36,203 nucleotides of DNA, taken from the NCBI RefSeq assembly GCF_013215345.1, contig NZ_JABSOV010000035.1:1-36203 (forward strand). The letters are read 5' to 3'. Positions 13,848-36,203 of the stretch are shown one piece after another. The stretch comes from Colwellia sp. (lineage in GTDB: Bacteria; Pseudomonadota; Gammaproteobacteria; Enterobacterales; Alteromonadaceae). Below the pieces are notes generated by a model. That model saw only the letters and a program-made list of their open reading frames with translations. It searched no databases and was not told the DNA's origin. Each line of letters starts with the position of its first letter. Within the stretch, counting starts at the first letter, position 1. Made by a program: the position numbers and the translations under genes.

Positions 13848-13932
13848 ATATAGTAAACTCTCTTTTTTTATTATTATAATTTAGCTATTTATGTTTTAAC
13901 TCATTATCGCTAGCTATACCAAACTGCTATGG

Positions 13933-15468: not shown

Positions 15469-15527
15469 TTGCTTTCCTATCATTTAGCTTGTAATCATTT
15501 GGGCAAAAAAATCGGCTTATCTATTTG

Positions 15528-16976: not shown

Positions 16977-16992
16977 ATGTAAGCGCTTACAT
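16977..16992. promoter_or_regulatory. LacI-family operator 1 (perfect palindrome)
   Basis: ATGTAAGCGCTTACAT, a perfect 16-bp palindrome with central CG, in the divergent region between the GH1 operon (minus) and the FHS transporter (plus). It is identical to operator 5 at 30624-30639. Likely controls the GH1-GPH-GPH-lacI-glk operon. Confidence 0.88.
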
Positions 16993-17413: not shown

Positions 17414-17429
17414 ATGAAAGCGCTTACAT
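17414..17429. promoter_or_regulatory. LacI-family operator 2
   Basis: ATGAAAGCGCTTACAT, one mismatch to the 16-bp consensus, 43 bases before the FHS transporter start. A -10-like TATTAT lies at 17441-17446, so a bound repressor would cover the place where a -35 box belongs. Confidence 0.82.
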
Positions 17430-17472: not shown

Positions 17473-18738
17473 ATGGCTTCATTTTCAAATACAGGTGTTT
17501 CATCACCCATAACTGGTGAGGCACATGATGTCGACTACCGCTTCGCGCTAACTTCGTTAACGTCTTTATTTTTCATGTGGGGCTTTATCACTTGTTTGAA
17601 TGATATTTTAATCCCGCACTTAAAAGGTGTATTTGATTTATCTTATAGTCAGGCCATGTTGGTACAGTTTTGTTTTTTTGGCGCTTACTTTATTGTTTCA
17701 TTGCCCTCAGGCGCAATTGTTAAAAAGCTAGGTTATCAAAAAGGTATTGTTTTAGGGCTTGTGATAGCCGCCGTTGGTTGCTTATGCTTTTATCCCGCAG
17801 CAACTATGCACAGCTACCCAGTATTCTTGATGGCATTATTTATACTTGCCAGTGGTATTACCTTATTACAAGTATCAGCTAATCCTTACGTCAGTATGCT
17901 AGGCGATGCTAAAACGGCTTCATCTCGTTTAACCATGACGCAAGCTTTTAATGCCTTAGGTACTACTGTAGCGCCATTTTTTGGCGCCTTGTTGATTTTA
18001 AATGAAGCGTCGGATGCACTATCTGCCCGAGCGTCAGCAGAAGCAGTACAAATGCCTTATGTTTTTCTCGCTGCCATGTTATTGGCACTTGCCGCAATTT
18101 TTTCTTGGTTAAAATTACCTAACTTGTCACCTGTTGAGGAAGAAGAAAAACCTCAAGACGAAGTGAGTGGTAGTGCTTGGCAATACCGTCATTTGGTACT
18201 CGGCGCTGTCGGTATTTTCGTTTATGTGGGTGCTGAAGTCTCCATTGGTAGCTTTTTAGTTAGCTTCTTTGCTGATCCTAATATAGCCGGTCTAGAAGAG
18301 TCGCAAGCGGCTAAATATATCGCGTATTATTGGGGCGGTGCCATGGTGGGTCGCTTTATCGGTGCAGCCGTTATGCAAAAAATTGCTGCGGGCAAAGTAT
18401 TATGTTTTAACGCAACGCTAGCTGTTATATTAATTTTAGTGGCTGTTTTCTCTTCGGGTACGCTTGCCATGGTGGCAATTTTACTGGTTGGCTTATGTAA
18501 TTCAATTATGTTCCCAACAATTTTCAGTTTAGCTATTCAAGGTTTAGGCAAACATACCAGTCAAGCTTCAGGTATTTTATGTTTAGCTATTGTTGGTGGA
18601 GCAATTATTCCACTTGTTCAAGGACTGCTAGCTGACACTGTAGGTGTGCAACCTGCGTTTATCTTACCTATATTTTGCTATTTCTTTATCGTCTATTACG
18701 GTCTATCTGGCAGTAAAGTCAAAGCGATTGGCAAGTAA
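17473..18738 (+). CDS. FHS-family glucose/galactose-type MFS transporter
   Basis: Inner-membrane proton-coupled sugar carrier of 421 residues with about 12 membrane helices. The FHS signature is at the start: [23 protein letters not shown]; further family segments are [31 protein letters not shown] and the second-half [27 protein letters not shown]. Closest named types are the GluP/FucP group for glucose, galactose or fucose. With GH3 downstream (65 bases) it most likely takes up glucose liberated in the periplasm. Start is supported by AGAGGAAATT before ATG. A LacI-type operator lies just upstream. Confidence 0.92.
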
Positions 18739-18802: not shown

Positions 18803-21382
18803 ATGATAAAAAATATAAAACTTACTTATAGTGCTAGAGTCTGCATACTTTGCTTGGCTGTAATATCTGTACTTGTTGGCTGTAATGGCAATAAACAAGA
18901 GGCTGCAGAGACATCATCTCAACTAGCAGTAGCATCAACAAATATTGGCATTTGGCCAAAACTTGATATAGCGGTTAAAGCGGATGCCGATATTGAAGAA
19001 AAAGTCGCATCTTTACTGGCGACAATGACGCTTGAGCAAAAAGTGGCGCAAATGATCCAACCAGAAATACGCGATATCACGGTAGAAGATATGCGTAAAT
19101 ATGGCTTTGGCTCATACTTAAACGGCGGTGGCGCTTTTCCTAATAATGATAAACATGCTACCCCAAGTGATTGGGTTAACTTAGCCGAAGCTATGTACCA
19201 AGCATCAATCGATGACAGTTTAGATGGCAATAGTATTCCTACTATGTGGGGCACAGATGCGGTGCACGGACATAATAATGTTATTGGTGCCACCTTGTTT
19301 CCTCATAATATTGCTTTAGGGGCAACAAATAATCCAGATCTGATTGAGAAAATTGCCGCTATCACGGCTACAGAAGTGATGGTCACTGGCATTGATTGGG
19401 TTTTTGCACCAACGGTTGCCGTAGTGCGGGATGATCGTTGGGGAAGAACCTATGAAGGTTACTCTGAAGATCCTGAGATCGTTAGAGAGTATTCTGCTGC
19501 CATAGTCAAAGGTTTGCAGGGTGCTGCAGACAAAGACTTCCTTGGTGACAATCGTGTTATTAGTACAATAAAACACTTTATCGGCGACGGTGGTACTGAA
19601 GGTGGTGACGATCAAGGAAACAACCTTTCATCAGAGCCAGAATTATTTGATATTCATGCTCAAGGTTACGTTGGCGGTTTAACTGCTGGCGCGCAATCAG
19701 TTATGGCATCTTTTAATAGCTGGCACGGCAGCAAGATTCATGGCAATAAATACCTAATTACTGATGTGTTAAAAGGTAAAATGGGCTTTGATGGTTTTGT
19801 TGTTGGTGACTGGAATGGTCATGGACAGGTCAAAGGTTGCTCAAACGAAAGTTGTGCACAAGCGATAAATGCCGGCTTAGATATTTTTATGGTGCCAACG
19901 GATGCATGGAAACCGCTGTATGAAAATACTATTGCACAAGCCAACAGTGGCGAAATTGCGCAAACACGTATTGATGATGCCGTCAGTAGAATTCTGCGAG
20001 TTAAATTTAGAGCTGGGCTTTTTGATAAACCCAGCCCAGTAAATAGAGCTTTATCAGGAAAAATACATTTAATTGGCGCTATTGAGCACAGAGAAGTTGC
20101 CCGACAAGCGGTAAGAGAGTCGTTAGTTTTACTTAAAAATAAAGGCAATATCTTACCTTTGTCAGCCCAGCAAAATATTCTAGTGGCCGGCGATGGTGCT
20201 GATAATATTGGCAAGCAATCAGGTGGCTGGACTATTACTTGGCAAGGCACCAATAACTTTAATAATGACTTCCCTGGTGGTAGCTCTATTTATCAGGGGA
20301 TTGAGCAACAGGTGAAAGCACAAGGTGGTAGTGTTGAACTCAATGTTGATGGACATTATAAAAATAAGCCTGATGTCGCTATTGTTGTTTTTGGTGAAGA
20401 GCCTTATGCCGAAGGGGTAGGTGATATAGAAAACCTAGAATACCAACAAGGTGTTAAACAAGACCTTGCCTTGTTAAAGCGGCTTAAAGCCGATGGTATT
20501 AAGGTCGTTTCTCTGTTTATTAGTGGTCGTCCATTGTGGGTTAATGCGGAGCTGAATGCCTCTGATGCGTTTGTCGTGGTATGGCTACCTGGCTCAGAAG
20601 GTGTGGCTGTAGCTGATGTCCTTTTTAGCAAAGAAAACGGTGACTTTAACTATGATTTTACCGGTAATTTATCTTACTCTTGGCCAGCAACTGCTAGTCA
20701 AACTAAGGTCAATCGTTTTGATGAAGACTATCAGCCGTTATTGCCTTATGGTTTTGGTTTAAACTATGGTGAGCCGAATGTCTTAGCAGATGATTTAAAC
20801 GTTATTAATGAGAACACCACGGAAAGTTTAGCCAGTATTACCTTGTTTGAAAGCTCGGTAAAATCACCATGGAAAATGATGATTTCTGATAGCCATGCTA
20901 CCAGCACTATGACCAGTAGTATCATTGAAAATAAAGCGTTATATTTGCGTTCTATCGATAGAGATGTGCAAGAAGATGCCAGAAGAGCATTATTTAATGG
21001 CTCAGAAAAAGGCCAGCTTGCTTTTACCAGTAGTTCTGCCACTGATCTATCACCCTATGGCGAAGCGAATTCGACCCTAGAGCTAACGGTGCGTTTGACG
21101 GAAAGGCAAAACTTAGCAGAGCAACAGGGCGTTTATTTAGCAATGCTTTGTGGAGAGCAGTGCCAAGGTAAAGTTAATATAACAAAGCAACTGTCATTAT
21201 TAGAGGTTAACCAATGGCACACTCTGAATATCGACTTAAATTGTTTTGTAAAAAGTGGCGCTGATCTGAGTAGCATTCTTAGTCCATTTTCATTGCAGAC
21301 AGCAGCACCATTAAACATAGATTTCACAGATATCTATATTCGACCTGATAACCTCGAACAAGCGACTATTTCTTGTCAGTAA
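18803..21382 (+). CDS. GH3 exo-1,3/1,4-beta-glucosidase, lipoprotein
   Basis: Glycoside hydrolase of 859 residues that removes glucose from the non-reducing ends of beta-glucans or cello-oligosaccharides. A lipobox ISVLVGC puts the lipidated Cys at residue 27, so it is membrane-anchored, probably facing the periplasm. The GH3 N-terminal domain (about 65-400) has the KH pair (Lys257-His258) and the nucleophile Asp336 in GFVVGDWNGH; the GH3 C-terminal domain spans about 425-655 (ESLVLLKNKGNILPL, then VWLPGSEGVAVADVL). A third beta domain (about 690-855) matches the C-terminal galactose-binding-like domain of Pseudoalteromonas ExoP-type enzymes. It probably shares a transcript with the FHS transporter. 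A terminator follows at 21408. Confidence 0.94.
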   Translation: MIKNIKLTYSARVCILCLAVISVLVGCNGNKQEAAETSSQLAVASTNIGIWPKLDIAVKADADIEEKVASLLATMTLEQKVAQMIQPEIRDITVEDMRKYGFGSYLNGGGAFPNNDKHATPSDWVNLAEAMYQASIDDSLDGNSIPTMWGTDAVHGHNNVIGATLFPHNIALGATNNPDLIEKIAAITATEVMVTGIDWVFAPTVAVVRDDRWGRTYEGYSEDPEIVREYSAAIVKGLQGAADKDFLGDNRVISTIKHFIGDGGTEGGDDQGNNLSSEPELFDIHAQGYVGGLTAGAQSVMASFNSWHGSKIHGNKYLITDVLKGKMGFDGFVVGDWNGHGQVKGCSNESCAQAINAGLDIFMVPTDAWKPLYENTIAQANSGEIAQTRIDDAVSRILRVKFRAGLFDKPSPVNRALSGKIHLIGAIEHREVARQAVRESLVLLKNKGNILPLSAQQNILVAGDGADNIGKQSGGWTITWQGTNNFNNDFPGGSSIYQGIEQQVKAQGGSVELNVDGHYKNKPDVAIVVFGEEPYAEGVGDIENLEYQQGVKQDLALLKRLKADGIKVVSLFISGRPLWVNAELNASDAFVVVWLPGSEGVAVADVLFSKENGDFNYDFTGNLSYSWPATASQTKVNRFDEDYQPLLPYGFGLNYGEPNVLADDLNVINENTTESLASITLFESSVKSPWKMMISDSHATSTMTSSIIENKALYLRSIDRDVQEDARRALFNGSEKGQLAFTSSSATDLSPYGEANSTLELTVRLTERQNLAEQQGVYLAMLCGEQCQGKVNITKQLSLLEVNQWHTLNIDLNCFVKSGADLSSILSPFSLQTAAPLNIDFTDIYIRPDNLEQATISCQ

Positions 21383-22605: not shown

Positions 22606-23163
22606 TAATGAGTAATAAGGCCAAGCTAATTGATTCTTGTATAACCTGAGATGACTTCCCCCCTATAGGACATAATGCATTATTTAGTTACTGATATTTG
22701 TCATTTTTAGCGTAAACAGCCAATGACAAAGACGATAAGAAGAGCGGAGCTTAATTTCATTGTCATGTTTTAGGCAAGCTATCAATAGAAAGAGATCTTG
22801 CTACTAATTTTCTATCCTAACTACGCAATCCTTAATAGATAAAAGCCTTGCTTAATTAAAATAATTGGTTTTAAATACCTTTTGGTGGAAGCGCTTACAC
22901 TCCTGTTGGTTTATTTGCTTTATCGGCCATCTAAGTAGAGGCGTGGCAAGTAATCAAGATAAACAGCGCAATAAACAAGCCGTGAATATTTAGCTTGTTT
23001 ATCCAATCAATGGATGACTATAGATGACATGTTTATTCATTTTATAGTTAAATCGTAAGGTGTATTCACGTACTTTTTTAGATGTGAAAATAATACCTGA
23101 GAGTGCTAAACAGGCGACCTATAGTTGCCAAAACTGACGAGTATCTTTTATGCGGAGGGAGCT
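22606..23163. other. 558-base non-coding region before halogenase 1
   Basis: No ORF of credible length. It contains the LacI-type operator at 22885-22900 and a 10-bp perfect inverted repeat (ATAAACAAGC at 22971-22980 with GCTTGTTTAT at 22993-23002) lacking a T-run. The distance of about 260 bases from operator to halogenase start implies a long leader or a promoter not placed immediately at the operator. Confidence 0.6.
22885..22900. promoter_or_regulatory. LacI-family operator 3
   Basis: GTGGAAGCGCTTACAC; 13 of 14 inner positions match TGTAAGCGCTTACA. It lies about 265 bases before halogenase 1 in the region between the solute-binding protein and that gene, and is the only site near this halogenase. 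Confidence 0.75.
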
Positions 23164-24723
23164 ATGAGTAAAGTCATTAAAAATATTGTTATCGTAGGTG
23201 GTGGCACAGCGGGTTGGTTAACCGCGGGTGTGATTGCCGCAGAGCATAATTCAAAGTCTGCATCGGGTTTGCAAGTAACGTTAATAGAGTCGCCTGAAGT
23301 TAATACCGTTGGTGTGGGTGAGGGTACTTGGCCAACCATGCGAGAAACCTTAGATAAAATTGGCATAGATGAAACTGATCTGTTTAGAGAATGTGAAGCC
23401 TCTTTTAAACAAGGTGCAAAATTTTCCAAGTGGGTTACCGGCGCTGAAGACGACTATTATTATCACCCGTTAGTATTACCTCAAGGTTATACCAAAACAG
23501 ACCTGGTTTTCCCTTGGCAAAAACATCGAGGCGAAATTTCATTTGCTGATGCCGTCAGTTATCAAGGCCATATTTGTGAACAAGGCCGTGCACCTAAACT
23601 CATTTCAACACCTGAATATGCAGGTATAGCAAATTATGCTTATCATCTTAATGCCGTTAAATTAGGTCAGTTTTTGCGAAAACACTGTATTGAAAAACTA
23701 GGCGTTAAACATGTTGTTGACCATGTAACTGAAATAAACTCAGCGGACAATGGTGATATTGCCTCAGTAGTAACAAAAGAGCATGGTGATATTACTGGTG
23801 ATTTATTTATTGATTGCTCAGGTTTTTCTTCAATATTATTAGGAAAACACTTTAGGGTTCCATTTATTAGCAAAAAGCACATATTATTTAATGATACGGC
23901 CTTGGCTGTGCAAGTGCCTTATCCTGACGGAAATAGCGCTATTGCTTCGCATACTATATCAACAGCGCAAAGCTCAGGCTGGATTTGGGATATAGGTTTA
24001 CCTTCAAGAAGAGGGGTAGGTTATGTTTACTCAAGCGAACATACCAATGAAAAAGATGCTGAAAGTGAGCTACGCGCTTATATTGAATCTTCTATTGGCA
24101 AAGCTGAAACAGATAAACTTAACATAAGAAAAATTAGCTTTAATCCCGGACATAGAGAAAAGTTCTGGCATAAAAACTGTGTAGCCATCGGCATGGCTTC
24201 GGGGTTTTTAGAGCCACTTGAAGCTTCTGCTTTAGTTTTAGTTGAGCTAGCGGCAGCTAAAATAAGTCGTGAAATGCCAGCAACACGCGAAACCATGGAC
24301 ATAGTCGCCAAACGTTATAATAAACAATTCCTCTATCGTTGGCAGCGCATTATAGAATTTTTAAAACTGCACTATATTTTAACTAAAAGAACCGACTCTG
24401 CTTATTGGCGAGATAATTGTAATGCTGAAACGATCCCCGAAAGTCTGCAAGAGTTATTAACCTTATGGAAACATCAGCCCCCAGGGCCGCAAGACTTCCA
24501 CCATGTTGAAGAGGTTTTTCCTTCTTCAAGTTGGCAATATGTGCTTTATGGCATGGGCTTTGAAACCAAAAAAAATGAAGTGTCATGCAAGTTTGTCAAT
24601 GAAGAAATGGCGCATCAATTTTTTAGTGAAAATGCTGAACTTACTAAAAAGTACTTATCGGCTTTACCCAGTAATAGAGAGTTAATTGATAAAATTAAAC
24701 AGTATGGCATGCATAAGATTTAG
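23164..24723 (+). CDS. Flavin-dependent (tryptophan) halogenase family protein 1
   Basis: FAD-dependent halogenase-like protein of 519 residues. The dinucleotide motif VIVGGGTAGW (GGGTAGW at 12-18), the segment GVGEGTWP and the catalytic-type Lys82 in SFKQG (PrnA Lys79) are present, as is Glu353 in PLEAS (PrnA Glu346 in PLEST). The usual WxWxIP motif reads WIWDIGLP (from Trp273), so the Pro directly after Ile is replaced by Gly. The ATG at 23164 follows an excellent GGAGGGA (23154-23160); an earlier in-frame TTG at 23125 would add 13 residues and is rejected. No signal peptide. Such proteins recur in TonB-receptor/sugar loci of Xanthomonas, Caulobacter and Alteromonadales, where the natural substrate is unknown. 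It faces halogenase 2 convergently. Confidence 0.9.
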   Translation: MSKVIKNIVIVGGGTAGWLTAGVIAAEHNSKSASGLQVTLIESPEVNTVGVGEGTWPTMRETLDKIGIDETDLFRECEASFKQGAKFSKWVTGAEDDYYYHPLVLPQGYTKTDLVFPWQKHRGEISFADAVSYQGHICEQGRAPKLISTPEYAGIANYAYHLNAVKLGQFLRKHCIEKLGVKHVVDHVTEINSADNGDIASVVTKEHGDITGDLFIDCSGFSSILLGKHFRVPFISKKHILFNDTALAVQVPYPDGNSAIASHTISTAQSSGWIWDIGLPSRRGVGYVYSSEHTNEKDAESELRAYIESSIGKAETDKLNIRKISFNPGHREKFWHKNCVAIGMASGFLEPLEASALVLVELAAAKISREMPATRETMDIVAKRYNKQFLYRWQRIIEFLKLHYILTKRTDSAYWRDNCNAETIPESLQELLTLWKHQPPGPQDFHHVEEVFPSSSWQYVLYGMGFETKKNEVSCKFVNEEMAHQFFSENAELTKKYLSALPSNRELIDKIKQYGMHKI

Positions 24724-24937: not shown

Positions 24938-26422
24938 TTAGTGGCTTGAACGACAATATTGGTCTAAGAAGGATTGATGTGAAGGTAGGTCTGCGACCGC
25001 CTTATCAATTGTTTGTCTTATATCGCTTAAGAATCTTTCGAGTTCGTGTGGCTTCATAATAGCGGCAATTTGATGATATTGTTCAGGATAAACACCTTGC
25101 CCCAACATTACTTGCGCCCATGAATCAACACGGAATAATTCGCCTTCAGAGGTGAAAATCCGTCCCGTTTCTTTGAATAAGTCTAATCTTTGTTTGAGTG
25201 AATCAGGTATTTCCATATTTTTACAGTACTGCCAAAACGGTGTGTCAGCTCTCTGGGTTGCATGGTAATGTAAAATAATAAAGTCTCGAATATGCTCAAG
25301 TTCAGTGGTGAGTTGTTGATTATATTCGTTAACAGCAGAAGGGCTTATGCCCTCGAAAGGAAATAGTCGAATTAGCCGTAAAACACCTGACATGATCAAA
25401 TGGATACTGGTTGATTCCAATGGCTCTAAGAAGCCGCTAGATAAACCTAAAGCAACACAGTTTTTATTCCAACCTTTTCTTCTACGGCCAGTCTTAAACT
25501 TAATCACTCTTGGTTGGTTAATTGCCTCGCCTTCAATGTTATCCATCAATAAGGTTTTTGCATCATCATCAGCTAAGTACTTACTGCAAAACACTAAGCC
25601 ATTACCTACTCTATGCTGTAATGGAATACGCCACTGCCAACCACTGTCTCGAGCGATAGAACGGGTGTAAGGCAAGGGTGCTGATACAGACTTTGTTTGT
25701 ACGGCTACAGCACTGTCACAGGGTAACCAGTGTGACCAATCTTCATAACCAGTATGTAAGGCTTTTTCGATGAGTAAACCTACAAAACCAGTACAATCTA
25801 TAAATAACTGACCTTCAATAACATTGCCATTGGCAAGTTGTAGTGATTTAATTTCACCCGTTTTACTATCTTTGGTTACGTCGATAATTTTACCTTCTAT
25901 GCGTTTTACACCATGAGCCTCGGCAAATGTGCGTAAAAACTTTGCATAGAGAGTAGCGTCTAAATGATAGGAATAATTTAAGCCGCCTTTAGTCAGGGCG
26001 AATTTTTCAGCTTTAGCTGCTTGAATTTCAGGAGAGTAATGATCAAAGGCGAAGTCAATGTTGTTTCGTTTGCCGTGTAACCAAAAATGCTGAAACTCTC
26101 CAGCCCAACATTCTTTTCCTACACGGCCAAAACCATGCATATATTCATCATCGCCCTTTTTCCAGTTTTCAAAGTTAATACCTAATTTGAACGTTGCATG
26201 TGTTGCTTTCATGAAGGCTTGTTCATTGATCCCAAGTAGACGATGAAATGCAGTTAGGGTCGGGATTGCTGCTTCACCAACACCGACAGTAGCAATTTCG
26301 TCTGACTCCACTAAGGTGATATCAAAGGATTTACCTAACAACTTTGACAATGAGGCTGCTGACATCCAACCGGCAGTTCCGCCACCAGCAATAACTATTT
26401 TAGTAATTTTTTGATTATTCAT
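24938..26422 (-). CDS. Flavin-dependent (tryptophan) halogenase family protein 2
   Basis: Second halogenase-like flavoprotein, 494 residues. All hallmark elements are intact: GGGTAGW (13-19), GVGEAAIP (48-55), catalytic-type Lys79 in TFKLG, WQWRIP (262-267, the WxWxIP motif) and Glu337 in PLESTS. It is therefore more orthodox than the protein at 23164-24723, and the two differ throughout, so they are old paralogues and not a recent duplication. It lies 37 bases downstream of sapC, starts after GAGG, and is probably cotranscribed with it. It likely uses reduced FAD from a partner reductase, which is not encoded here. Substrate unknown; halogenation may not be its true activity in this setting. 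Confidence 0.92.
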   Translation of the reverse strand: MNNQKITKIVIAGGGTAGWMSAASLSKLLGKSFDITLVESDEIATVGVGEAAIPTLTAFHRLLGINEQAFMKATHATFKLGINFENWKKGDDEYMHGFGRVGKECWAGEFQHFWLHGKRNNIDFAFDHYSPEIQAAKAEKFALTKGGLNYSYHLDATLYAKFLRTFAEAHGVKRIEGKIIDVTKDSKTGEIKSLQLANGNVIEGQLFIDCTGFVGLLIEKALHTGYEDWSHWLPCDSAVAVQTKSVSAPLPYTRSIARDSGWQWRIPLQHRVGNGLVFCSKYLADDDAKTLLMDNIEGEAINQPRVIKFKTGRRRKGWNKNCVALGLSSGFLEPLESTSIHLIMSGVLRLIRLFPFEGISPSAVNEYNQQLTTELEHIRDFIILHYHATQRADTPFWQYCKNMEIPDSLKQRLDLFKETGRIFTSEGELFRVDSWAQVMLGQGVYPEQYHQIAAIMKPHELERFLSDIRQTIDKAVADLPSHQSFLDQYCRSSH

Positions 26423-26459
26423 TTAAACCTCAAAACATGTGTTGTCATTAACAGGTAAA

Positions 26460-27176
26460 CTATTGCTTGTTTTTTAAGTCGACTAAGCGTTGAATATTGT
26501 CCAAAGAAGCGGTAATGAAATAGGCTACTCTTAATAAACCGGAGCTATGCAGCTCAGTCAAGGCATCACCACTGAGTAGGGAAAGCTTTTCTTCGTTTAG
26601 GGTATAATTGCCTTGCAGAGAAATTTTTTCACCATTGTTTAATTCAATATTTAAAGCAACAGGTTCAATTAAATCATTTTTCAAGAAAGCGGCAAACATT
26701 TCTTGGTTTAGTTGAGAGCCATCATGTAGTGTTTTTAATGATTGGTTTACTTGCACAAGATAAGGACTAGCCTGACCATCTTCTAAAAATATTGGCTCGC
26801 CACTTTTTTTGTTTACTCGAGGGTTGTCCATATCAATGGCAACTATCGGCAGCTTAACCTTTTCCCCGTTTTCTTCTTTTTCTTCAAAACCAATAATGAA
26901 AGGGCCTTTATTAATCATCGCCGGGATATAGCTGGCTTGCCAACCGTTATTAATATATTGGTTCTCACCAGCAACTAAACCAAGCAATACCACACTTTGA
27001 AACTGACCTGTTTCAGGGTTTTTAATAAATAGAATAGGGTAGTCACGTTGTGCTGCTTTAATTTCGTTAGGGAATATTAAGGCACTGTTAATTTTTTCTG
27101 AAAATTCATCGTCAAAATGAGTGATAACTTTAACGTCTTTGTGGTTTTTATTATCGAGGATGTCGTGATTAGCCAT
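26460..27176 (-). CDS. SapC family protein
   Basis: Protein of 238 residues without a signal peptide, matching the SapC family (PF07277), a name taken from a Campylobacter surface-layer locus. Typical segments are the N-terminal SALIFPNEIKAAQRDYPILF, then GFEEKEENGEKV, the charged IDMDNPRVNKKSG and C-terminal LSGDALTELHSSGLLRVAYF. Its function is unknown. In marine gammaproteobacteria and caulobacters it is regularly found between a TonB-dependent receptor and a tryptophan halogenase, exactly as here. The start follows TAGGAATTTCC. A terminator lies between the receptor gene and sapC, so sapC-halogenase may have its own promoter in the 27177-27390 region as well as read-through. Confidence 0.88.
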   Translation of the reverse strand: MANHDILDNKNHKDVKVITHFDDEFSEKINSALIFPNEIKAAQRDYPILFIKNPETGQFQSVVLLGLVAGENQYINNGWQASYIPAMINKGPFIIGFEEKEENGEKVKLPIVAIDMDNPRVNKKSGEPIFLEDGQASPYLVQVNQSLKTLHDGSQLNQEMFAAFLKNDLIEPVALNIELNNGEKISLQGNYTLNEEKLSLLSGDALTELHSSGLLRVAYFITASLDNIQRLVDLKNKQ

Positions 27177-27488: not shown

Positions 27489-30400
27489 TTAGAAAGTATA
27501 ACGAAGACCTAACTCATAACGTGCATCCCATTCTTCAGCAAAAGTTAGCTGGTTAGCTGTTCGACCATGTTTACGCGGGTCTTCACCAGTAATGTTTATG
27601 CCTGCAAATGACATTGAGAACTGCTCGGTTACTTGATAACCAACACTGAAATCAATTTGTGAGTACTCTTCAGTAAACTCAGGCTCATTTGCATAAATTG
27701 CCGCATCGTTTAAGAATTCGTCACGCCAGTTATAAGCAATACGTGCTGAGAAACCTTCCATTTCATATAACAACACTAAGTTAGCCGTGTCACTTAAACC
27801 AAGTAAAGCAAACTGGGTATCTGTAGCTGTTAAATCAAACTCTATATCGCCATTAACAAGGGTATAGTTTGCTTGGAAGCCAAAGCCACTATCGCCAAAG
27901 AAATGCTGCACCGCGAATTCCATACCATCAATTACTGCACTTTTGTTGTTCGTTGGTGATTGTGATAAAAAGCTCATTAATGGATCGTCGCTGTTAGCGA
28001 AAACATCGACTTCTTTTTCATAGTAGTTATCGGTATGACCGTTAGCATAAATTGTTTCACCTAACTGAGTCGCCGCAACTTGTGAGAATAAGGTTGTTTC
28101 GTTAACGTTAATACCAGCGGTATTTAAATCCTCAATCGCTTGTAAAGCTCTTGGGCCGGCACTTGGATCTCTTAAACCATAATAATCACTGACAACCGGT
28201 GCATTACCGATAAATTTATCAACATCTTTTCTGAAATAACCCGCAGAAACATAACTGGTATCGTCAAAATACCATTCCATTGAAATATCAATGTTAGTTG
28301 ATTCTAATGGCACCAGTGATGCGCTACCGCTACTTGCCGAGCCATTTAGTTCATTAAGCACTGTTGGTGCCCCAGGGCCGCCGGTAATACTTACAGCATT
28401 ACTTAATTGGCCGTAAGTAGGACGAGCAATTGTTTGACTAAATGATGCACGGGCTTTGACGTCCGGTGTTAAGTCAATATCAAAATCGATATTCGGTAAG
28501 AAGTGACTATAAGAGTTTGACTCACTACGCAGTTGAGCATCAACAAAGGCACCTTGATCTACGATAAAGTCATTATTACTTACCCAGCGTACCGCGGTTG
28601 GTGCAGCAATATTAGCCGTTGAAGTAGATTTAGTATCTTCATAACGTACACCTACAGAGACGTTGTAAGGCAAGTCAGAGATGTAACCTGAGTAAGAGAC
28701 TTTTACATAAGCCGCGGTAACATCTTCTTGGATACGACGGTCAGTTGCAAGGGCTGTATCACGTGCTAAATCTAAGCCATAAATAGGCGCTGCCCAATTG
28801 GCTAATGCAATAGCATCGCCACGGAAAGCTTGTGTCCAACCAGTCGTTTTATAATCGTCTAAAGAGTCATTAAAATCGATAGCATCTAACATAGAGGCAG
28901 GAATTTCACCGGGGTTGTTTACACCCCAATCACCCATGGATTGGTTAGTACTTGATTGAGTTGAGTGGTTATCCATTTCTCTTGATTCAATACCGAAATC
29001 GATTTGACCATCTTCAAATTCCCAGTTTCCGTCGATACGAATTTGAGTAATGTCATTGGTATTATAAGCATGAGACTTTTGGTAAATAGAGGTACCAAGA
29101 TCGCTAACGTCAAATGCATTGTTACAGTTTAAACCAATGCGAGCATCACAATCGTCGAAACCAACATGGATTGCCGGAATACCTGAGGCGCCATAAGTCG
29201 CACCCTGTTGTGCTAAAATGTTAGAACCAATACCAACAGTGACATCATTACCATAGCTTGATAATGGTGATGACTCAGAAGAAGAGTCGTTATAATCAAA
29301 CGCTAAGGTTAAATCATCATTAACTTCCCAAACTAAGTTCAAGCCAATAGAGTCATCTTCGGTGATTGAATTACGATATTTTTGTTTTGTGGCAATATCA
29401 CGAGGTGCTTGTTCTCTTTTATCTTCACGGTAAATTAAAGGTGAAGGGTTTAAACCATCAGTAAAAGTGATATCACTTTTATAGTCAGACATCCAAATAG
29501 ATAACTCAGTACCCTGTTGCTCTTGCTCTAACTTAGAATAAGTATAATCAAAAGTCGCGGTAAGAGTCTCTATAGGGCGATATTGTAATGTTAGTTGCGC
29601 GTTAGTACGTTCACGTTGACGATCCCATAAACGGTAACCAAGATCTGAAGGAAGGGCATAGTTTTCACCCATACCCGGAGCATTATTTAATTGCGTAGGG
29701 GCTCCTGGAGAAGTCGCAGGCACCATATCAGGCACTGTCCCGTCATATACACCGTTACGCCATTGAGCAACAACGGCTTGTGTTGAACTACTATCACGTT
29801 GAGAAAAGCTACCTGTGAAAGAAGCACCAAACATCTCATCTTCATCGGTCCAACTTAATAAGCCAGAAATTTCAGGTGTTACTTGGTCACTGTAATCACG
29901 AACACCATCTCTTACTGAGGTGTCCATCATTGCTTTACCACCGATGCTGGCAATAAAGCCTGGGTTATCAAGTGGTTTAGCTGTATTAATGTTAATGGTT
30001 GCACCAATACCGCCACTTGCAGCAGCAGCATTAGCTGTTTTGTATATTTCTACCGACTTAACCGCATCAGAAGCAAGATTTTGGAAATCAAAAGCTCTGT
30101 TATCAGAAGCACCGCCACCGTCAGGTAAGGTAGATGAAGCCATAAGGCGGCCATTTAAGGTAACCATATTATACTGAGGACCAAAGCCACGAACTGTTAC
30201 TCGGCTACCTTCACCATTTGAACGGTCAATCGAAACACCGGTAATACGTTGTAAAGATTCGGCTAAGTTAGTATCAGGGAACTTACCGATATCCTCAGCA
30301 GAGATGGCATCGACGACACCCGTAGCATCACGCTTTAAACGCGTTGACTCTTTAATGCTTGAACGCATACCCGTTACTTCGATAACTTCGACGTCTGCTT

Positions 30401-30503
30401 TAGCTGATACTTCTTCTGCTGATACTGCAGGTAGCGCTGTTGCCCCAAGTATCAGTGATAAGCTCGTTGCAATTCTTGTTTTAGTAAATGTTTTCTGAAT
30501 CAT
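27489..30503 (-). CDS. TonB-dependent receptor (carbohydrate-type)
   Basis: Outer-membrane active transporter of 1004 residues. Signal peptide with cleavage near PAVSA-EE, then a TonB-box-like VEVIEVTGMR at about residues 38-47. The plug domain follows (about 60-170: DATGVVDAISAEDIGKFPD, LAESLQRITGVSIDR, VTVRGFGPQYN) and then a long 22-strand barrel ending in the aromatic terminus LGLRYTF. The plug wording is that of the large marine TonB receptors for oligosaccharides rather than siderophore receptors. Together with GH1, GH3, GH94 and LacI sites it most likely imports beta-gluco-oligosaccharides or their oxidised forms. A TATAAT promoter with an overlapping LacI-type operator precedes it, plus a second perfect operator. 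Ligand inferred from context. Confidence 0.93.
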   Translation of the reverse strand: MIQKTFTKTRIATSLSLILGATALPAVSAEEVSAKADVEVIEVTGMRSSIKESTRLKRDATGVVDAISAEDIGKFPDTNLAESLQRITGVSIDRSNGEGSRVTVRGFGPQYNMVTLNGRLMASSTLPDGGGASDNRAFDFQNLASDAVKSVEIYKTANAAAASGGIGATININTAKPLDNPGFIASIGGKAMMDTSVRDGVRDYSDQVTPEISGLLSWTDEDEMFGASFTGSFSQRDSSSTQAVVAQWRNGVYDGTVPDMVPATSPGAPTQLNNAPGMGENYALPSDLGYRLWDRQRERTNAQLTLQYRPIETLTATFDYTYSKLEQEQQGTELSIWMSDYKSDITFTDGLNPSPLIYREDKREQAPRDIATKQKYRNSITEDDSIGLNLVWEVNDDLTLAFDYNDSSSESSPLSSYGNDVTVGIGSNILAQQGATYGASGIPAIHVGFDDCDARIGLNCNNAFDVSDLGTSIYQKSHAYNTNDITQIRIDGNWEFEDGQIDFGIESREMDNHSTQSSTNQSMGDWGVNNPGEIPASMLDAIDFNDSLDDYKTTGWTQAFRGDAIALANWAAPIYGLDLARDTALATDRRIQEDVTAAYVKVSYSGYISDLPYNVSVGVRYEDTKSTSTANIAAPTAVRWVSNNDFIVDQGAFVDAQLRSESNSYSHFLPNIDFDIDLTPDVKARASFSQTIARPTYGQLSNAVSITGGPGAPTVLNELNGSASSGSASLVPLESTNIDISMEWYFDDTSYVSAGYFRKDVDKFIGNAPVVSDYYGLRDPSAGPRALQAIEDLNTAGINVNETTLFSQVAATQLGETIYANGHTDNYYEKEVDVFANSDDPLMSFLSQSPTNNKSAVIDGMEFAVQHFFGDSGFGFQANYTLVNGDIEFDLTATDTQFALLGLSDTANLVLLYEMEGFSARIAYNWRDEFLNDAAIYANEPEFTEEYSQIDFSVGYQVTEQFSMSFAGINITGEDPRKHGRTANQLTFAEEWDARYELGLRYTF

Positions 30504-30547: not shown

Positions 30548-30563
30548 GGTTAAGCGCTTACAT
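30548..30563. promoter_or_regulatory. LacI-family operator 4
   Basis: GGTTAAGCGCTTACAT: the right half-site is perfect, the left degenerate. It sits 6 bases upstream of the receptor -10 box, so occupancy would block RNA polymerase. Confidence 0.75.
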
Positions 30564-30623: not shown

Positions 30624-30639
30624 ATGTAAGCGCTTACAT
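30624..30639. promoter_or_regulatory. LacI-family operator 5 (perfect palindrome)
   Basis: ATGTAAGCGCTTACAT, flanked by T and A to make an 18-bp perfect palindrome. Centre-to-centre it is 76 bases from operator 4 and 211 bases from operator 6, within the divergent region of receptor and GPH-GH94 operons. Confidence 0.88.
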
Positions 30640-30834
30640 AAAAGGTAAATTATTAACGAAAATAGGTCAATAAATATTTCAAAGTAAATTAAAGTTTATA
30701 CACTAAATGTATGAATGTTATACAGGCGCGTGCTTTATTTTTTTATCATAAACTTATGTTTTAATTGCGTTTAACTTTATATTAGCATTAGGTGTTAAAA
30801 ATTATTATTGATAATAATACAAATACCAGTATAT

Positions 30835-30850
30835 TTGTAAGCGCTTACAT
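30835..30850. promoter_or_regulatory. LacI-family operator 6
   Basis: TTGTAAGCGCTTACAT, one mismatch at the outermost base. It lies 92 bases before the GPH symporter start and probably controls the GPH-GH94-gntK-CBM9 operon. The region 30504-30941 as a whole is a 438-base regulatory gap with no other gene. Confidence 0.85.
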
Positions 30851-30941: not shown

Positions 30942-32432
30942 ATGATAAAAAATATAAAACAAACTCAACATAATTTAGGCCCAAACTCTGGTCCGAATTC
31001 TGGCCTGAGCTTAGGCGAAAAAGTAGGTTATGCCTGCGGCGATGTCGCATCAAACTTTTATTGGCGTGTCTTTGATGTATTCCTCTTTATCTTTTATACC
31101 GATGTTTTTGGCTTATCAGCAGCTGCCGTCGGTACCATGATGCTGGTGACTCGGCTTATTGATGCCTTTTCTGATCCGCTAATGGGCGCAATCGCCGATA
31201 GAACTAATACTCGTTTTGGTAAATTTAGGCCCTATTTACTCTGGGGTATTATCCCTATGATTGCCGCAGGGGTACTTACTTTTACCGTGCCTGATGTCAG
31301 TGATGGCAATAAATTAATTTGGGCCTATGGCACTTACATCTTTATGATGTTGGCATACACCTTTATAAATGTGCCCTACGGAGCCTTACTCGGTGTGGTT
31401 ACGGGTGACAGTCAACAAAGAACTACCTTAACAAGCTTCCGTTTTATTGGTGCTTTTTCTGGTGGCAGTCTTGTTGCTTTTATGACGCCTGAATTGGTAA
31501 ATTACTTAGGGCAGGGTGATGAAGCACTTGGTTGGCAGCTTACTATGCTTACTTATGGTTTAGTTTCAGCGGTACTTTTTGTTATTACCTTTTTATCAAC
31601 CACTGAGCGTATATCTCCACCAGCACAGCAAAAAACACCGGTATTACAAGATTTAAAAGATTTGACGCAGAATACCCCTTGGAAGATTCTTTTTGTTTTA
31701 GCACTTATCATCATGATGACTATCTCATTAAGAGGCAGCAGCGGAACTTTCTATTTTAAATATTATGTTGAACGTCCGGATTTAATTGGTAGCTTCGCCA
31801 TGGCTTACATGATTGCTTTAGCCATTGGTGCAGCGTCTACGCCTTTATTGACCAAGTTCATTGATAAGCGCCGTTTGTTAATGATACTAATGACTATTGT
31901 CGCAGCGCTATCACTCATTTTCTACTTTGTGCCAAAGGACAACATTACCTCGATGTTTACCTTGCAGATACTCATTGGCTTAGCACTGGGACCAAAATCG
32001 CCGTTAGTTTTTTCTATGTATGCAGATACTGCAGATTTCTCGCAATGGCATACGGGCAGACGGGCCACTGCGATGATATTTTCCGCTGCTGCATTTGCAC
32101 AAAAACTCGGTGGTGCCCTTGCGGGCGCTATGATTGGCTGGACGCTGGCTTCATTAGGTTATATTGCCAACCAGGTGCAAACGGTTACATCTCAAGATGG
32201 CATTGTGTTATTGATGACCTTGCTGCCGGCTATTTTTGCCGCCATTGCCGTGCCGGTAATTTATTTTTATCCGTTAGATGATCAGCAGTTGAAGAAGTTG
32301 CAAGGTGAGTTAATTACCCAGGAAAAAATAGCAAGGGAAGAGTTAGCGGAGCAAGAATTAGCGCAGCAAAAACTAACTAAAAATGAAAAACCTAATGCGA
32401 CTGATGAGCAAACAGGAGCCGTTAATGCCTAA
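30942..32432 (+). CDS. GPH-family symporter, probable cellobionate/cellobiose carrier
   Basis: MelB-like inner-membrane symporter of about 496 residues. Marks: LGEKVGYACGDVASNFYWRV, RLIDAFSDPLMGAIADRTN and RFGKFRPYLLWG; the C-terminal tail is long and Glu/Gln/Lys-rich (QEKIAREELAEQELAQQKL). Its gene overlaps the GH94 gene by 8 bases, so the carrier very likely imports the GH94 substrate. Start is uncertain: ATG 30942 is chosen, ATG 30924 or TTG 30918 are in frame and no candidate has a strong ribosome site. The first 22 bases around ATG 30942 match those around the GH3 start at 18803, an odd resemblance. Cargo inferred from neighbours. Confidence 0.87.
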   Translation: MIKNIKQTQHNLGPNSGPNSGLSLGEKVGYACGDVASNFYWRVFDVFLFIFYTDVFGLSAAAVGTMMLVTRLIDAFSDPLMGAIADRTNTRFGKFRPYLLWGIIPMIAAGVLTFTVPDVSDGNKLIWAYGTYIFMMLAYTFINVPYGALLGVVTGDSQQRTTLTSFRFIGAFSGGSLVAFMTPELVNYLGQGDEALGWQLTMLTYGLVSAVLFVITFLSTTERISPPAQQKTPVLQDLKDLTQNTPWKILFVLALIIMMTISLRGSSGTFYFKYYVERPDLIGSFAMAYMIALAIGAASTPLLTKFIDKRRLLMILMTIVAALSLIFYFVPKDNITSMFTLQILIGLALGPKSPLVFSMYADTADFSQWHTGRRATAMIFSAAAFAQKLGGALAGAMIGWTLASLGYIANQVQTVTSQDGIVLLMTLLPAIFAAIAVPVIYFYPLDDQQLKKLQGELITQEKIAREELAEQELAQQKLTKNEKPNATDEQTGAVNA

Positions 32433-34947
32433 GTCACCTTTGATTAAGTCTCCTCTAGCCAAGCAGCCTTTGATCTCTATAGATAACGCTGTTGATGGTC
32501 ATAGTAAAATAAAACTAAACAGCCCAACCGAATTACCTAATGCGACCGGTTTTTTATGGAACCGCGCCATGGTCATGCAAGTTAATTGTCGAGGTTATGT
32601 CAATTCACAGTTCATGCAGCCTGAGCCCGCAAAATACTCTTACGCGCCGAACATGGAAGCTAAAAGTTTTATTCAACCCGAACATAGTTATTTTAGCCAT
32701 CACCCCGGACGATTTTTCTACCTTAAAGATGAAGACAGTGGTGAAATTATTTCACTGCCCTATGAACCAATGCGGGTTGAACTCGATAAATTCTCTTTTG
32801 AACTCGGCAATAGTGATATTGCTTGGTCAATTGAACACAGTGGCTTGCAGATAAATATCAAAGTAACTTTAACCAAAGATGATTTAGTTGAATGTTGGTC
32901 TTTTTCGGTGCTTAACTTAACTGAGCGGCTAAGAAATATTAGTATTTACCCGTATTTTACTATTGGCTATATGTCGTGGATGAATCAATCAGCTACTTAT
33001 GATAAAGCGTTAAATGCCATTGTGGCAAATAGTGTAACCCCTTATCAAAAAGTGACAGATTACTTTAAAAACAAGCAGTTTAAAGACAAAACTTTCTTTC
33101 TTAGTGATACTCGCCCTACGGCGTGGCATGCTAATCAAAAGGTTTTTGAAGGCGAAGGCGGCTTACATAATCCCAGTGCCTTACAAGCTGAGCTTTTAGA
33201 AAATGTTGATGCACGTTATGAAACTCCGGTTGCAGTAATGCAGTTTCAGCAGCAGTTATTAGCCAGTGAGCGAAAAACCTATCAATTTTTATTTGGTCCG
33301 GCAAAAGATGAAGCCGAAATCGCGATAATTAAAGAAAAATACTTGGGGTATAAGCAGAGAAGCCAAGCAGAGCAGTGCTATCGTGATTACCTTAATCAAG
33401 GTAAAGCCTGTTTAACCATTAACAGTGACAATGGCAATGGCAATGGTAGCGGAAATAAAGGCTTTGATAACTTTAATAACTTTGTTAATCATTGGCTGCC
33501 AAGGCAGATGTTTTATCATGGCGATGTTAATCGCTTAAGTACTGACCCTCAAACTAGAAACTATATTCAAGATAATATGGGCATGGCTTTTATTGATAGC
33601 GATACCACTCGGCAAGCTTATATCTTAGCGGTATCTCAGCAAGCCATTAGCGGTGCTATGCCAGAAGGGGTTTTGCTGCATCAAGATGCAGAGCTTAAAT
33701 ATATTAATCAGGTGCCGCATGCTGATCATGGGGTTTGGTTACCTATCTGCCTGTCGGTTTATTTAAACGAAACTGCTGATGTCAGTTTACTCAGTGAAAT
33801 GATAGCTTTTGCCGATTCAGAGCAAGAGCAATCTTTTTCTTGCCATATCGAGTTAGCTTTAGATTACCTTATTAATGCCACCGATCATCGTGGTTTAAGT
33901 TTTATAGAGCAAGGCGATTGGTGCGATCCGATGAATATGGTTGGTTATCAAGGTAAAGGAGTATCTAGCTGGTTATCATTAGCAACGGCCTACGCATTAA
34001 CGACTTGGTGTGACCTTTGCAATGAATACGACATTAATATTAGCCAACAAAAATATGATGAATATCGCTTTGCTGCCAAAGCAATTAATAACGCGGTAAA
34101 TGAACACTTGTGGCATGGACAGTGGTTTGCCCGTGGCATTACCGATGATGGTCGTGTTTTTGGAACTGATGAAGAGGCAGAGGGCAAGATATTTCTTAAT
34201 CCACAGAGTTGGGCCATGCTCAGTGGCGCGGCAAATGAGCAACAACAAATAGCTATGGTTTCGGCAATATCAAAACAGTTAACAACACCGCAAGGGGTGA
34301 TGATGCTGGCGCCTAGTTATACCGCCATGGTGGAAGATATTGGTCGTATTACCCAAAAACATCCAGGCGTATCTGAAAATGGCTCAGTCTATAACCACGC
34401 GGCAATATTTTATATTTACGCCCTTTATCAAGCTGGACAAAATAACTTAGCTTTTGACTTGCTCAGTAAAATGCTGCCATCCCTTGAAAATGCCCAAAGA
34501 ACCGGGCAGTTACCAATTTATGTGCCTAATTATTATCGCGGTGCTTACTATCAATTTCCTAAACAAGCCGGTCGCTCGAGTCATTTATTTAATACCGGTA
34601 CCATCTCTTGGTTATATCGTTGTTTAGTAGAAGAGTTGTGCGGCTTAAAGGGCTGTGCTCGTGGTTTGCAGATAGCGCCTAAGTTGCCATCAGAGATTAA
34701 AAATTTATCAGGTCAACGGCTATTTAGGCGAGCAATTATCGATTTCACTATTGAGCAAAGCAGTGATGTGAACGCAGTAGAAATTTCACTCAACAAGCAA
34801 AGCATATCAGGTAATATCCTGACAAATTTGCAAGCAGGTCAGCACTATAACTTGCAAGTGAAGGTACCAGTAACCGAGGCGGACGTCATAGCAGGCAAGA
34901 ACAATCCTAAGGAGGAGGAAATTCAGGGAGGCCAATGGCATGATTAA
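32425..34947 (+). CDS. GH94 phosphorylase, probable cellobionic acid phosphorylase
   Basis: Inverting GH94 phosphorylase of 840 residues without a signal peptide. Family marks: N-terminal beta-sandwich (GFLWNRAMVMQVNCRGYVN; HHPGRFFYLKDEDSG), the DPQTRNYIQDNMG segment, and the general-acid Asp498 in EQGDWCDPMNMVGYQGKG. Classical cellobiose phosphorylases have DWND-C at this point; the DWCDPMN form and the basic segment NYYRGAYYQFPKQAGRSS are unlike them, and I associate them with the cellobionic acid phosphorylase group known from Saccharophagus and Neurospora. That enzyme converts cellobionate and phosphate to glucose-1-phosphate and gluconate. The gluconokinase gene directly downstream strongly supports this. 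ATG 32425 is chosen for its AGGAG (32414-32418); an upstream in-frame ATG at 32383 lacks one. A Gly/Asn linker occurs near residues 333-346. Chitobiose or laminaribiose phosphorylase is less likely. Confidence 0.82.
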   Translation: MPKSPLIKSPLAKQPLISIDNAVDGHSKIKLNSPTELPNATGFLWNRAMVMQVNCRGYVNSQFMQPEPAKYSYAPNMEAKSFIQPEHSYFSHHPGRFFYLKDEDSGEIISLPYEPMRVELDKFSFELGNSDIAWSIEHSGLQINIKVTLTKDDLVECWSFSVLNLTERLRNISIYPYFTIGYMSWMNQSATYDKALNAIVANSVTPYQKVTDYFKNKQFKDKTFFLSDTRPTAWHANQKVFEGEGGLHNPSALQAELLENVDARYETPVAVMQFQQQLLASERKTYQFLFGPAKDEAEIAIIKEKYLGYKQRSQAEQCYRDYLNQGKACLTINSDNGNGNGSGNKGFDNFNNFVNHWLPRQMFYHGDVNRLSTDPQTRNYIQDNMGMAFIDSDTTRQAYILAVSQQAISGAMPEGVLLHQDAELKYINQVPHADHGVWLPICLSVYLNETADVSLLSEMIAFADSEQEQSFSCHIELALDYLINATDHRGLSFIEQGDWCDPMNMVGYQGKGVSSWLSLATAYALTTWCDLCNEYDINISQQKYDEYRFAAKAINNAVNEHLWHGQWFARGITDDGRVFGTDEEAEGKIFLNPQSWAMLSGAANEQQQIAMVSAISKQLTTPQGVMMLAPSYTAMVEDIGRITQKHPGVSENGSVYNHAAIFYIYALYQAGQNNLAFDLLSKMLPSLENAQRTGQLPIYVPNYYRGAYYQFPKQAGRSSHLFNTGTISWLYRCLVEELCGLKGCARGLQIAPKLPSEIKNLSGQRLFRRAIIDFTIEQSSDVNAVEISLNKQSISGNILTNLQAGQHYNLQVKVPVTEADVIAGKNNPKEEEIQGGQWHD

Positions 34948-35497
34948 ATCAGCGCAGTTGCAGTTATCACCACCACGATTATTTATTATTATGGGGGTGA
35001 GTGGTACTGGAAAGTCTACTTTAGCCAAGCAAATGGCCGATGAGTTTGGCTATGTTTTTGTTGATGCCGATGATTTTCATAGTGAACAAGCTAAAAAACA
35101 TATGGCCGCTAACCAGCCACTTACTGATGAAATGAGGCAACCTTGGTTAAGCTCAATTTTAAGTCATTTACATTCACTATATCAGCAAGAGAAATCGGTA
35201 GTACTGGCTTATTCAGGATTAAAATCTGCACATAGAGATTTATTTCGAGCTTCGTGTTTTAGGTGTCATTTTTTCTGTTTAATGGGTGATAAAGCTATTA
35301 TTACTAAGCGAGTTACTCAGCGGCAAGGCCACTTCTTTTCCCCTGATTTACTCGATAGTCAGCTTGCAGCTATGGAGTTCCCCCAAGATGATGAAGTCGA
35401 CGTAAATATAATTAATATCGATAGACCTTTTTTACGGGTAGCAAATGAAATAAATAACATAGTTAAAGAAATAGTGGAGCTAGAGAACAATGATTAG
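34940..35497 (+). CDS. gntK: Gluconokinase
   Basis: Cytosolic kinase of 185 residues that phosphorylates gluconate to 6-phosphogluconate. Family marks: P-loop MGVSGTGKSTLAK (residues 18-30), DADDFHSEQAKKHMAANQPL, the MRQPWLSSI segment and late RQGHFFSPDLLDSQLAAMEFP. It overlaps the GH94 gene by 8 bases and starts after GGGAGG (34926-34931). In this position its substrate would be the gluconate released from cellobionate by GH94. 6-phosphogluconate would then enter the Entner-Doudoroff or pentose-phosphate routes, whose genes are not in the window. Confidence 0.95.
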   Translation: MIKSAQLQLSPPRLFIIMGVSGTGKSTLAKQMADEFGYVFVDADDFHSEQAKKHMAANQPLTDEMRQPWLSSILSHLHSLYQQEKSVVLAYSGLKSAHRDLFRASCFRCHFFCLMGDKAIITKRVTQRQGHFFSPDLLDSQLAAMEFPQDDEVDVNIINIDRPFLRVANEINNIVKEIVELENND

Positions 35498-36203
35498 ATT
35501 GGTAAATTTACTAACAGTGTTAGTGGTGATAGTGATGTTAACTACAGTGGATGCCAATGCATTTACCGTTACTGCGATTGATGTTGATATTGATAAACGT
35601 GCCCTTGAGGCTAAAAAAGTAAAAGAAATAATGACTATGGACGGCATTGCCAATGAGGCCAGCTGGCAATTAGCAAGCTGGCAACCAATAGACCAGTTAA
35701 TCTTAGGCACTATGCCAAGCAAAGAGGACTTTTTTGGTCGATTTAAAATAATGTGGGATGATCAACAGTTATATTTGTTGGTAGAAATCACTGATGATAT
35801 TTTATTCGATCAACAAGCCGATCCGCGTCATCTATATTGGGATGATGATTGTTTAGAAATATTTATTGATGAAGATGGATCCGGTGGTAACCATCAGTTC
35901 AATTTTAATGCTTTTGCCTACCATGTTTCCTTGGATAATCAGGCAGTCGATATCGGCGAAAAAAATGCCTACGGCTCGGATAACTTTGTCTTGTTAAATG
36001 ATCATATCAGTAGCTCGTGGCGACGTAATGAAAATTCACCCAATAAAGTTATTTGGGAGCTGGCGGTGCGAGTTTATGACGATAGCTTCTCTATGCAATT
36101 GCCAACACAAGTGACAAAGCCCATGCAAAAGAAAAAGCCACAGCCAGTAAAATTGTTAGCAGGAAAAAAGTTCGGTTTCATGTTGGCTTATTGTGATAAC
36201 GAT
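35490..36203 (+). CDS. CBM9-like secreted sugar-binding protein (3' partial)
   Basis: Open for 238 codons to the right edge. Signal peptide: MIRLVNLLTVLVVIVMLTT, with likely cleavage after VDANA. From about residue 50 a CBM9-type fold is visible: MDGIANEASWQLASW, KIMWDDQQLYLLVEITDD, then YWDDDCLEIFIDEDGSGGN, QFNFNAFAYHVSLDN and VIWELAVRV, the usual order of the PF06452 family. It overlaps gntK by 8 bases, so it belongs to the GH94 operon. CBM9 modules of xylanases bind reducing ends of glucans; a role in binding oxidised or reducing chain ends fits but is inference. The full length is unknown; other domains may follow beyond the window. Confidence 0.8.
   Translation, partial: MIRLVNLLTVLVVIVMLTTVDANAFTVTAIDVDIDKRALEAKKVKEIMTMDGIANEASWQLASWQPIDQLILGTMPSKEDFFGRFKIMWDDQQLYLLVEITDDILFDQQADPRHLYWDDDCLEIFIDEDGSGGNHQFNFNAFAYHVSLDNQAVDIGEKNAYGSDNFVLLNDHISSSWRRNENSPNKVIWELAVRVYDDSFSMQLPTQVTKPMQKKKPQPVKLLAGKKFGFMLAYCDND

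Follow-up and report, generated by a model that had tools for sequence, protein, structure and literature searches.

A predicted cellobionate-use operon as a putative branch of a BglR-type beta-glucoside locus in Colwellia sp.

The stretch of DNA analysed here, referred to as the window, is one whole contig of 36,203 bases (G000:C187:1-36203) from a Colwellia sp. genome that comprises 4.24 Mb in 257 contigs and is 95.54% complete. Four genes at the end of the window encode a GPH symporter, a GH94 enzyme, a gluconokinase, and a protein with a CBM9 domain. The genes lie where the preliminary description had placed them, and each overlaps the next by 8 nucleotides (32425-32432, 34940-34947, and 35490-35497) if the GH94 gene is taken to start at the ATG at 32425, which has a Shine-Dalgarno sequence ahead of it. 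The start is ambiguous, because an earlier ATG is present at 32383, from which the GH94 residues are numbered below. The features of the four genes are as follows:

30942..32432, plus strand: GPH (MelB-type) symporter, predicted cellobionate:cation symporter (TIGR00792)
31995-31997, plus strand: codon of the signature lysine K352 of the symporter, counted from the ATG at 30942 (GPH alignment)
32425..34947, plus strand: GH94 enzyme, near-certain cellobionic acid phosphorylase (CBAP; PF17167, PF06165, tree, site residues)
33046-33048, plus strand: codon of GH94 Q222
33925-33927, plus strand: codon of the catalytic acid D515 of GH94
34345-34347, plus strand: codon of GH94 R655
34357-34359, plus strand: codon of GH94 K659
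34940..35497, plus strand: gluconokinase of the GntK/IdnK type (TIGR01313)
35490..36203, plus strand: CBM9 protein with a signal-like N-terminal segment, gene interrupted by the contig end (PF06452)

The GH94 protein, the only one encoded in the genome, matches the profiles PF17167 with 199.7 bits and PF06165 with 81.6 bits (catalytic and supersandwich domains). Its top match in the PDB is 4zle with 1055.3 bits, identified in the available passages of the review PMC8950772 as the S. degradans cellobionic acid phosphorylase Sde_0906 (SdCBAP), and the runner-up, chitobiose phosphorylase 1v7v, reaches 167.4 bits. The window protein and the Saccharophagus enzyme are identical in 441 of 783 aligned residues. 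In a tree of 32 GH94 sequences, both belong to a 23-member CBAP clade with support of 100/100. Positioned outside the clade are the cellobiose phosphorylase (CBP) of C. thermocellum, the chitobiose phosphorylase (ChBP) of V. proteolyticus, which is represented by its catalytic part only and has a long branch, and seven GH94 proteins from the same family; laminaribiose and cellodextrin phosphorylases, which had far lower scores in the PDB search, were left out of the tree. The clustering with cellobiose or chitobiose phosphorylases that would have spoken against the initial assignment of the gene is therefore not observed.

The carboxylate of the substrate is reportedly bound in SdCBAP by Q190, R609, and K613. 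The equivalent residues of the window protein are Q222, R655, and K659. The glutamine is present in all 110 distinct CBAP sequences collected, and the arginine and lysine in 109 of them, the exception being an incomplete sequence; the species in this collection are not all different, and two of the sequences are pieces of the window's own gene. By contrast, cellobiose phosphorylases contain H, E, E, and Y at SdCBAP positions 190, 347, 609, and 613, and ChBP has F and V at the places of R609 and K613. The DWCDPMN segment (residues 512-518), which had been described as non-classical, is so only in comparison with cellobiose phosphorylases; SdCBAP has the identical segment. The conservation of this segment is partly a product of selection, because its peptide was among the scan patterns, whereas Q190, R609, and K613 were not. 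From these sequence comparisons, the identity of the GH94 enzyme as a CBAP is near certain. The closest named records of the gene, among the best 80 of 513 relatives that were retained, are from Colwellia, with C. psychrerythraea GAB14E being 92% identical in the best segment.

The gluconokinase gene is the only one in the genome to exceed the cut-off of TIGR01313 (148.7 bits, cut-off 113.75); the second match has 25.2 bits and covers only positions 1-37 of the model, and the search was of this family, with others such as FGGY outside it. The edd gene of the Entner-Doudoroff pathway is present (981.8 bits). In 43 of the 110 CBAP sequences, the GH94 gene is adjoined by genes for a GPH symporter and a CBM9 protein and by a gluconokinase, either as a gene of its own or fused to GH94, and the arrangement is therefore not a product of chance. 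The expectation that a gluconokinase is the partner of the phosphorylase is strengthened by relatives in which the two enzymes are joined. In Psychrosphaera saromensis (locus L047), GH94 and gluconokinase form a single frame of 978 residues (L047:9959-12895), and nine of the 110 CBAP sequences, all from Alteromonadales, are such in-frame fusions (loci L047, L044, L049, L099, L102, L105, L162, L163, and L165). A GPH gene and a CBM9 gene are located beside the fused gene in all nine. The phosphate-binding loop of the kinase part reads GCGKN in L047, as opposed to GCGKS or GCGKT in L044, L049, L099, L102, and L105. The share of fusions is not a frequency, because 4 of the 13 loci in one set were picked for their long frames (three of them fused) and only the best loci from the family-wide CBAP search were fetched. 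Since the fused enzymes would catalyze sequential reactions, the fusions strongly support gluconate as the second product of the phosphorylase. When the fusions are mapped onto a tree, at least four changes of label are needed, two of which are forced by the starred branches; a tree that unites all fused sequences is not rejected (p-AU 0.415, from a quick tree with long branches). Both one and several origins of the fusion are possible according to these trees.

The symporter matches TIGR00792 with 394.5 bits (cut-off 231.35). A lysine occupies the position of K352, within the stretch GPKSPLVFSMYADTADF, in all 94 CBAP-linked GPH sequences, or in all 92 if two further pieces of the window's own gene (L148 and L149) are set aside. 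The linkage to GH94 is given by alignment ends for 83 of the 93 distinct sequences and by reading frames for nine more, and the last is the piece L148. The position is never a lysine in 11 other GPH proteins: it is A and M in the two other symporters of the window, F341 in MelB, M in three symporters from the fetched loci, T in UidB and YagG, and V in YicJ, YihO, and YihP, the last five being from E. coli. The MelB residue F341 adjoins W342, which belongs to the sugar site. A lysine that marks carriers of acids in general is ruled out by UidB, YagG, YihO, and YihP, which lack it. Cellobionate transport by CBT-1 of N. crassa depends on one arginine, R438, according to the passages available of PMC4537572. 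By analogy, we propose that K352 may act in the Colwellia symporter as R438 does in CBT-1, and the specificity of the carrier for cellobionate is predicted from the alignment. The Paenibacillus CBAP loci that were fetched contain no such GPH gene.

The CBM9 protein matches Pfam CBM9_1 (PF06452) with 103.3 bits (cut-off 23.4), and its fold is that of CBM9. In TmCBM9-2, the reducing-end sugar is held in a sandwich of two tryptophans. The residues W119 and E125, numbered in the protein of C. psychrerythraea GAB14E (L003), are invariant in all 31 CBM9 sequences and align with the WEQDSVE segment of 1i82; the place of the second tryptophan is outside the aligned stretch. Unlike the CBM9 domains of Thermotoga maritima Xyn10A (1I82) and Caldicellulosiruptor (7NWN), which are modules of xylanases, the protein encoded here stands alone and has a signal-like N-terminus. 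It is predicted to be a periplasmic binder of cello-oligosaccharides. In L003, a GH3 gene with an operator ahead of it follows the CBM9 gene. In the genome studied here, contig C239 begins with most of the counterpart of this GH3 gene, which is 87% identical across residues 244-876. Because the window is a whole contig, the CBM9 gene is truncated by the assembly, and further genes of the cluster probably lie beyond the contig end.

The four-gene operon is preceded by two perfect copies of a palindromic operator, TGTAAGCGCTTACA, and related sites and genes for the use of beta-glucosides are found upstream in the window:

30836..30849, no strand assigned: perfect operator TGTAAGCGCTTACA, upstream of the four-gene operon
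30808-30835, no strand assigned: promoter-like TTGATA-16-TATATT, abutting the operator at 30836..30849
30625..30638, no strand assigned: another perfect operator TGTAAGCGCTTACA, in the interval from the TonB-dependent receptor gene to the GPH gene
30549..30562, no strand assigned: weaker operator-like site with two mismatches, beside the start of the TonB-dependent receptor gene
22886..22899, no strand assigned: operator with one mismatch, ahead of the tryptophan-halogenase-family gene 23125..24723
17415..17428, no strand assigned: operator with one mismatch, upstream of the major facilitator superfamily (MFS) gene
16978..16991, no strand assigned: perfect operator, ahead of the GH1 gene
10127..11116, minus strand: glucokinase (PF02685)
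11440..12441, minus strand: LacI-family regulator, predicted from its neighborhood and the operators to be a BglR-type repressor of the entire cluster (PF00356, PF13377)
12519..15483, minus strand: two GPH symporters (12519-13847 and 13933-15483) in a BglT-like place, without the signature lysine
15528..16859, minus strand: GH1 beta-glucosidase in a BglA-I-like place
17473..18738, plus strand: MFS sugar permease in a GlcP-like place
18803..21382, plus strand: GH3 enzyme with an Exop_C domain in a BglA-II-like place, beta-glucoside branch
23125..24723, plus strand: second tryptophan-halogenase-family flavoprotein, operator ahead (PF04820)
24938..26422, minus strand: tryptophan-halogenase-family flavoprotein of the same cluster (PF04820)
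26460..27176, minus strand: SapC-family protein accompanying the TonB-dependent receptor (PF07277)
27489..30503, minus strand: TonB-dependent receptor, encoded divergently to the operon, with a predicted role in outer-membrane oligosaccharide uptake (TIGR01782, 634.2 bits, cut-off 310)

The window contains six sites with at most two mismatches to the operator palindrome, compared to 0.19 expected. All five sites with at most one mismatch in the 4.24-Mb genome are located in the window, and a control with the reversed pattern gives one. Two of the five precede the four-gene operon, and the other three precede the GH1 gene, the permease-GH3 pair, and the tryptophan-halogenase-family gene. Promoter-like sites are not above chance across the region (20, with 17.3 expected). 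Among relatives, 31 of 35 loci with a CBM9 gene and 6 of 42 loci without one carry an operator with at most one mismatch in the 600 base pairs ahead of the GPH match; the six are the window's own piece L149 and five Colwelliaceae.

The Bgl pathway of Shewanella and its BglR regulon, as outlined in the passages available of PMC2996990, comprise a GH1-GPH-LacI group divergent from a permease-GH3 pair, a TonB-dependent receptor, and a glucokinase. The same gene set is present at 10127-30503 of the window, where the LacI gene clusters with those for GH1, GPH, permease-GH3, and the TonB-dependent receptor and shares operators with them; the comparison is of gene content, with the BglR sequence and motif outside it. 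The glucokinases differ, because Glk-II of Shewanella is of the ROK type, whereas the best match of the window protein is PF02685. The passages mention no branch with GH94, gluconokinase, and CBM9, and "GH94" has no occurrence in the text of that source. Because of the gene content and the distribution of operators, the most plausible reading is that the four-gene operon belongs to a BglR-type regulon as one of its branches, and its regulation by the LacI-type repressor is predicted. The setting may also set the window gene apart from SdCBAP: it belongs to a GPH-GH94-GntK-CBM9 operon preceded by a BglR-type operator, and several of its relatives are fused to a gluconokinase.

The family memberships, the CBAP-type active site, gene order, conservation, the distribution of operators, and the presence of edd, all of which are read from sequence, make it very probable that the four genes are an operon for the use of cellobionate (4-O-beta-D-glucosyl-D-gluconate) within a BglR-type beta-glucoside locus, of which it is one branch. 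Three observations weigh against this assignment: the lysine is missing from UidB and YagG, E. coli carriers with annotations for other acids; the locus of C. echini (L007) contains no gluconokinase match within its bounds; and 4 of the 35 CBM9-bearing loci have no operator with at most one mismatch upstream of GPH. In the C. echini locus, the CBM9 frame follows straight after the GH94 frame, with a gap of about 13 bases.

A fourth point against the assignment, that CBAP is said to take glucuronate as an acceptor in synthesis, raises the alternative that the substrate is glucosyl-glucuronate rather than cellobionate. This would agree with the lack of co-occurrence of AA10 and CBAP among the 196 genomes described below and with an organism that has only a chitin-type AA10 and no GH5 match. 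However, the linked and sometimes fused kinase belongs to the gluconokinase family, which suggests that the second product is gluconate, and the operator links the operon to the beta-glucoside cluster, so glucosyl-glucuronate is an improbable substrate.

Only marginally less probable is the alternative, compatible with cellobionate as the substrate, that cellobionate is made by the organism's own lytic polysaccharide monooxygenase (LPMO) or an aldose dehydrogenase within an oxidative cellulose system of its own. In its favor, the genome has an AA10 gene and a GH9 gene, one of each. However, the single AA10 protein (L001, G000:C10) has a GbpA_2 domain and two CBM5/12 stretches and is encoded between chitinase genes; it is of the chitin type by its domains and neighbors. 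A chitin-use cluster is present at the same locus. The sole GH9 match (CelD_N and GH9; L160:3636-5456, G000:C229) is at a distance from recognized sugar genes, with nusG, an EF-Tu gene, and a gene for an ion channel nearby, and GH5 has no match in the 95.54% complete genome. Own aldose oxidation by membrane pyrroloquinoline quinone (PQQ) glucose dehydrogenase is also disfavored: in the search of this incomplete genome, which covered no other oxidases, that enzyme gives only a weak partial match below the cut-off. In a survey of 196 genomes of the family, a CBAP orthologue (at least 47% identity) was found in 57, AA10 in 41, and both in 13. AA10 is not associated with CBAP (13 of 57 compared to 28 of 139, Fisher p 0.70, with the chitin and cellulose types of AA10 pooled), and 44 of the 57 CBAP-bearing genomes have no AA10 match. 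The chitin-type AA10 and the missing association weaken an own LPMO as the source, although CBAP may be linked to AA10 of the cellulose type alone. The suggestion that the organism uses oxidized cellulose fragments of the type released by LPMOs is thus upheld by the identity of the CBAP but weakened with regard to an LPMO of its own. The weakest alternative, a cellobiose or chitobiose phosphorylase next to a gluconokinase for free gluconate taken up by the cell, would suit the GH94 family broadly and the beta-glucosidase-family enzymes in the cluster, but it is dismissed as very unlikely by the position outside the CBP and ChBP clades, an identity of 55% to SdCBAP and about 22% to CtCBP, the R and K of the acceptor site instead of E and Y or F and V, and the in-frame fusions of GH94 to gluconokinase among relatives.

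Given the results for AA10, GH5, and co-occurrence, an oxidative system of its own explains the pattern less well than cellobionate that is either produced by other organisms and scavenged or derived from some other natural source, and the organism may be a scavenger of cellobionate. In the cellobionate operon proposed here, native and oxidized cello-oligosaccharides would enter the periplasm through the divergent TonB-dependent receptor, where the CBM9 protein may bind them and the GH3 protein whose gene follows closely in relatives may trim the longer ones. The GPH symporter with the signature lysine would import cellobionate, GH94 would convert it with phosphate to glucose 1-phosphate and gluconate, and gluconokinase would form 6-phosphogluconate for the Entner-Doudoroff pathway. 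In the presence of an inducer, the LacI-type repressor would release the TGTAAGCGCTTACA sites. The substrate, transport, induction, and role of CBM9 in this scheme are what we infer from the locus.

Cellobionate is a main product of oxidative cellulose cleavage and, to our knowledge, little has been reported on its marine consumers or its entry into Gram-negative cells. The locus provides a full predicted route from the outer membrane to central metabolism, including a carrier with its lysine, a regulator, and operators. The cellobionate genes of Neurospora crassa are fungal, with no operon, TonB-dependent receptor, or such operator. A functional pathway of transporter, phosphorylase, and gluconokinase has been demonstrated there (CBT-1, CAP NCU09425, and gluconokinase; passages of PMC4537572), and the same three functions are combined in the window; however, the fungal carrier belongs to the MFS, was modelled on XylE, and has R438 as the key charge, whereas the Colwellia carrier is a GPH symporter. 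In E. coli, ascB is required for cells to grow on cellobionate (PMC4403981). The chemistry is thus known from other microbes and the setting appears new: the fusion of GH94 to gluconokinase in relatives, the lysine of the carrier, and the regulatory tie to a BglR-type operator are undescribed in the titles, beginnings of abstracts, and passages of the literature searched, which also yielded no paper on Colwellia together with cellobionic acid.

It is possible, as a tentative extension of the cellobionate assignment, that Alteromonadales mostly without AA10 built a full scavenging branch onto a BglR-type regulon, with a lysine-bearing GPH symporter that recognizes aldonates, a secreted CBM9 binder of aldonic ends, and at least nine loci for bifunctional phosphorylase-gluconokinases. 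If so, a natural bifunctional enzyme would turn cellobionate directly into glucose 1-phosphate and 6-phosphogluconate, with a possible use in biotechnology. The missing co-occurrence with AA10 makes cross-feeding on oxidized cellulose a workable hypothesis.

A gene for a family-3 solute-binding protein (21838-22605) is located between the GH3 and halogenase-like genes, with no ABC transporter gene recognized among the neighbors scanned. The two halogenase-family flavoproteins and the SapC protein (23125-27176) are encoded beside the TonB-dependent receptor, and one of the flavoprotein genes has an operator upstream.

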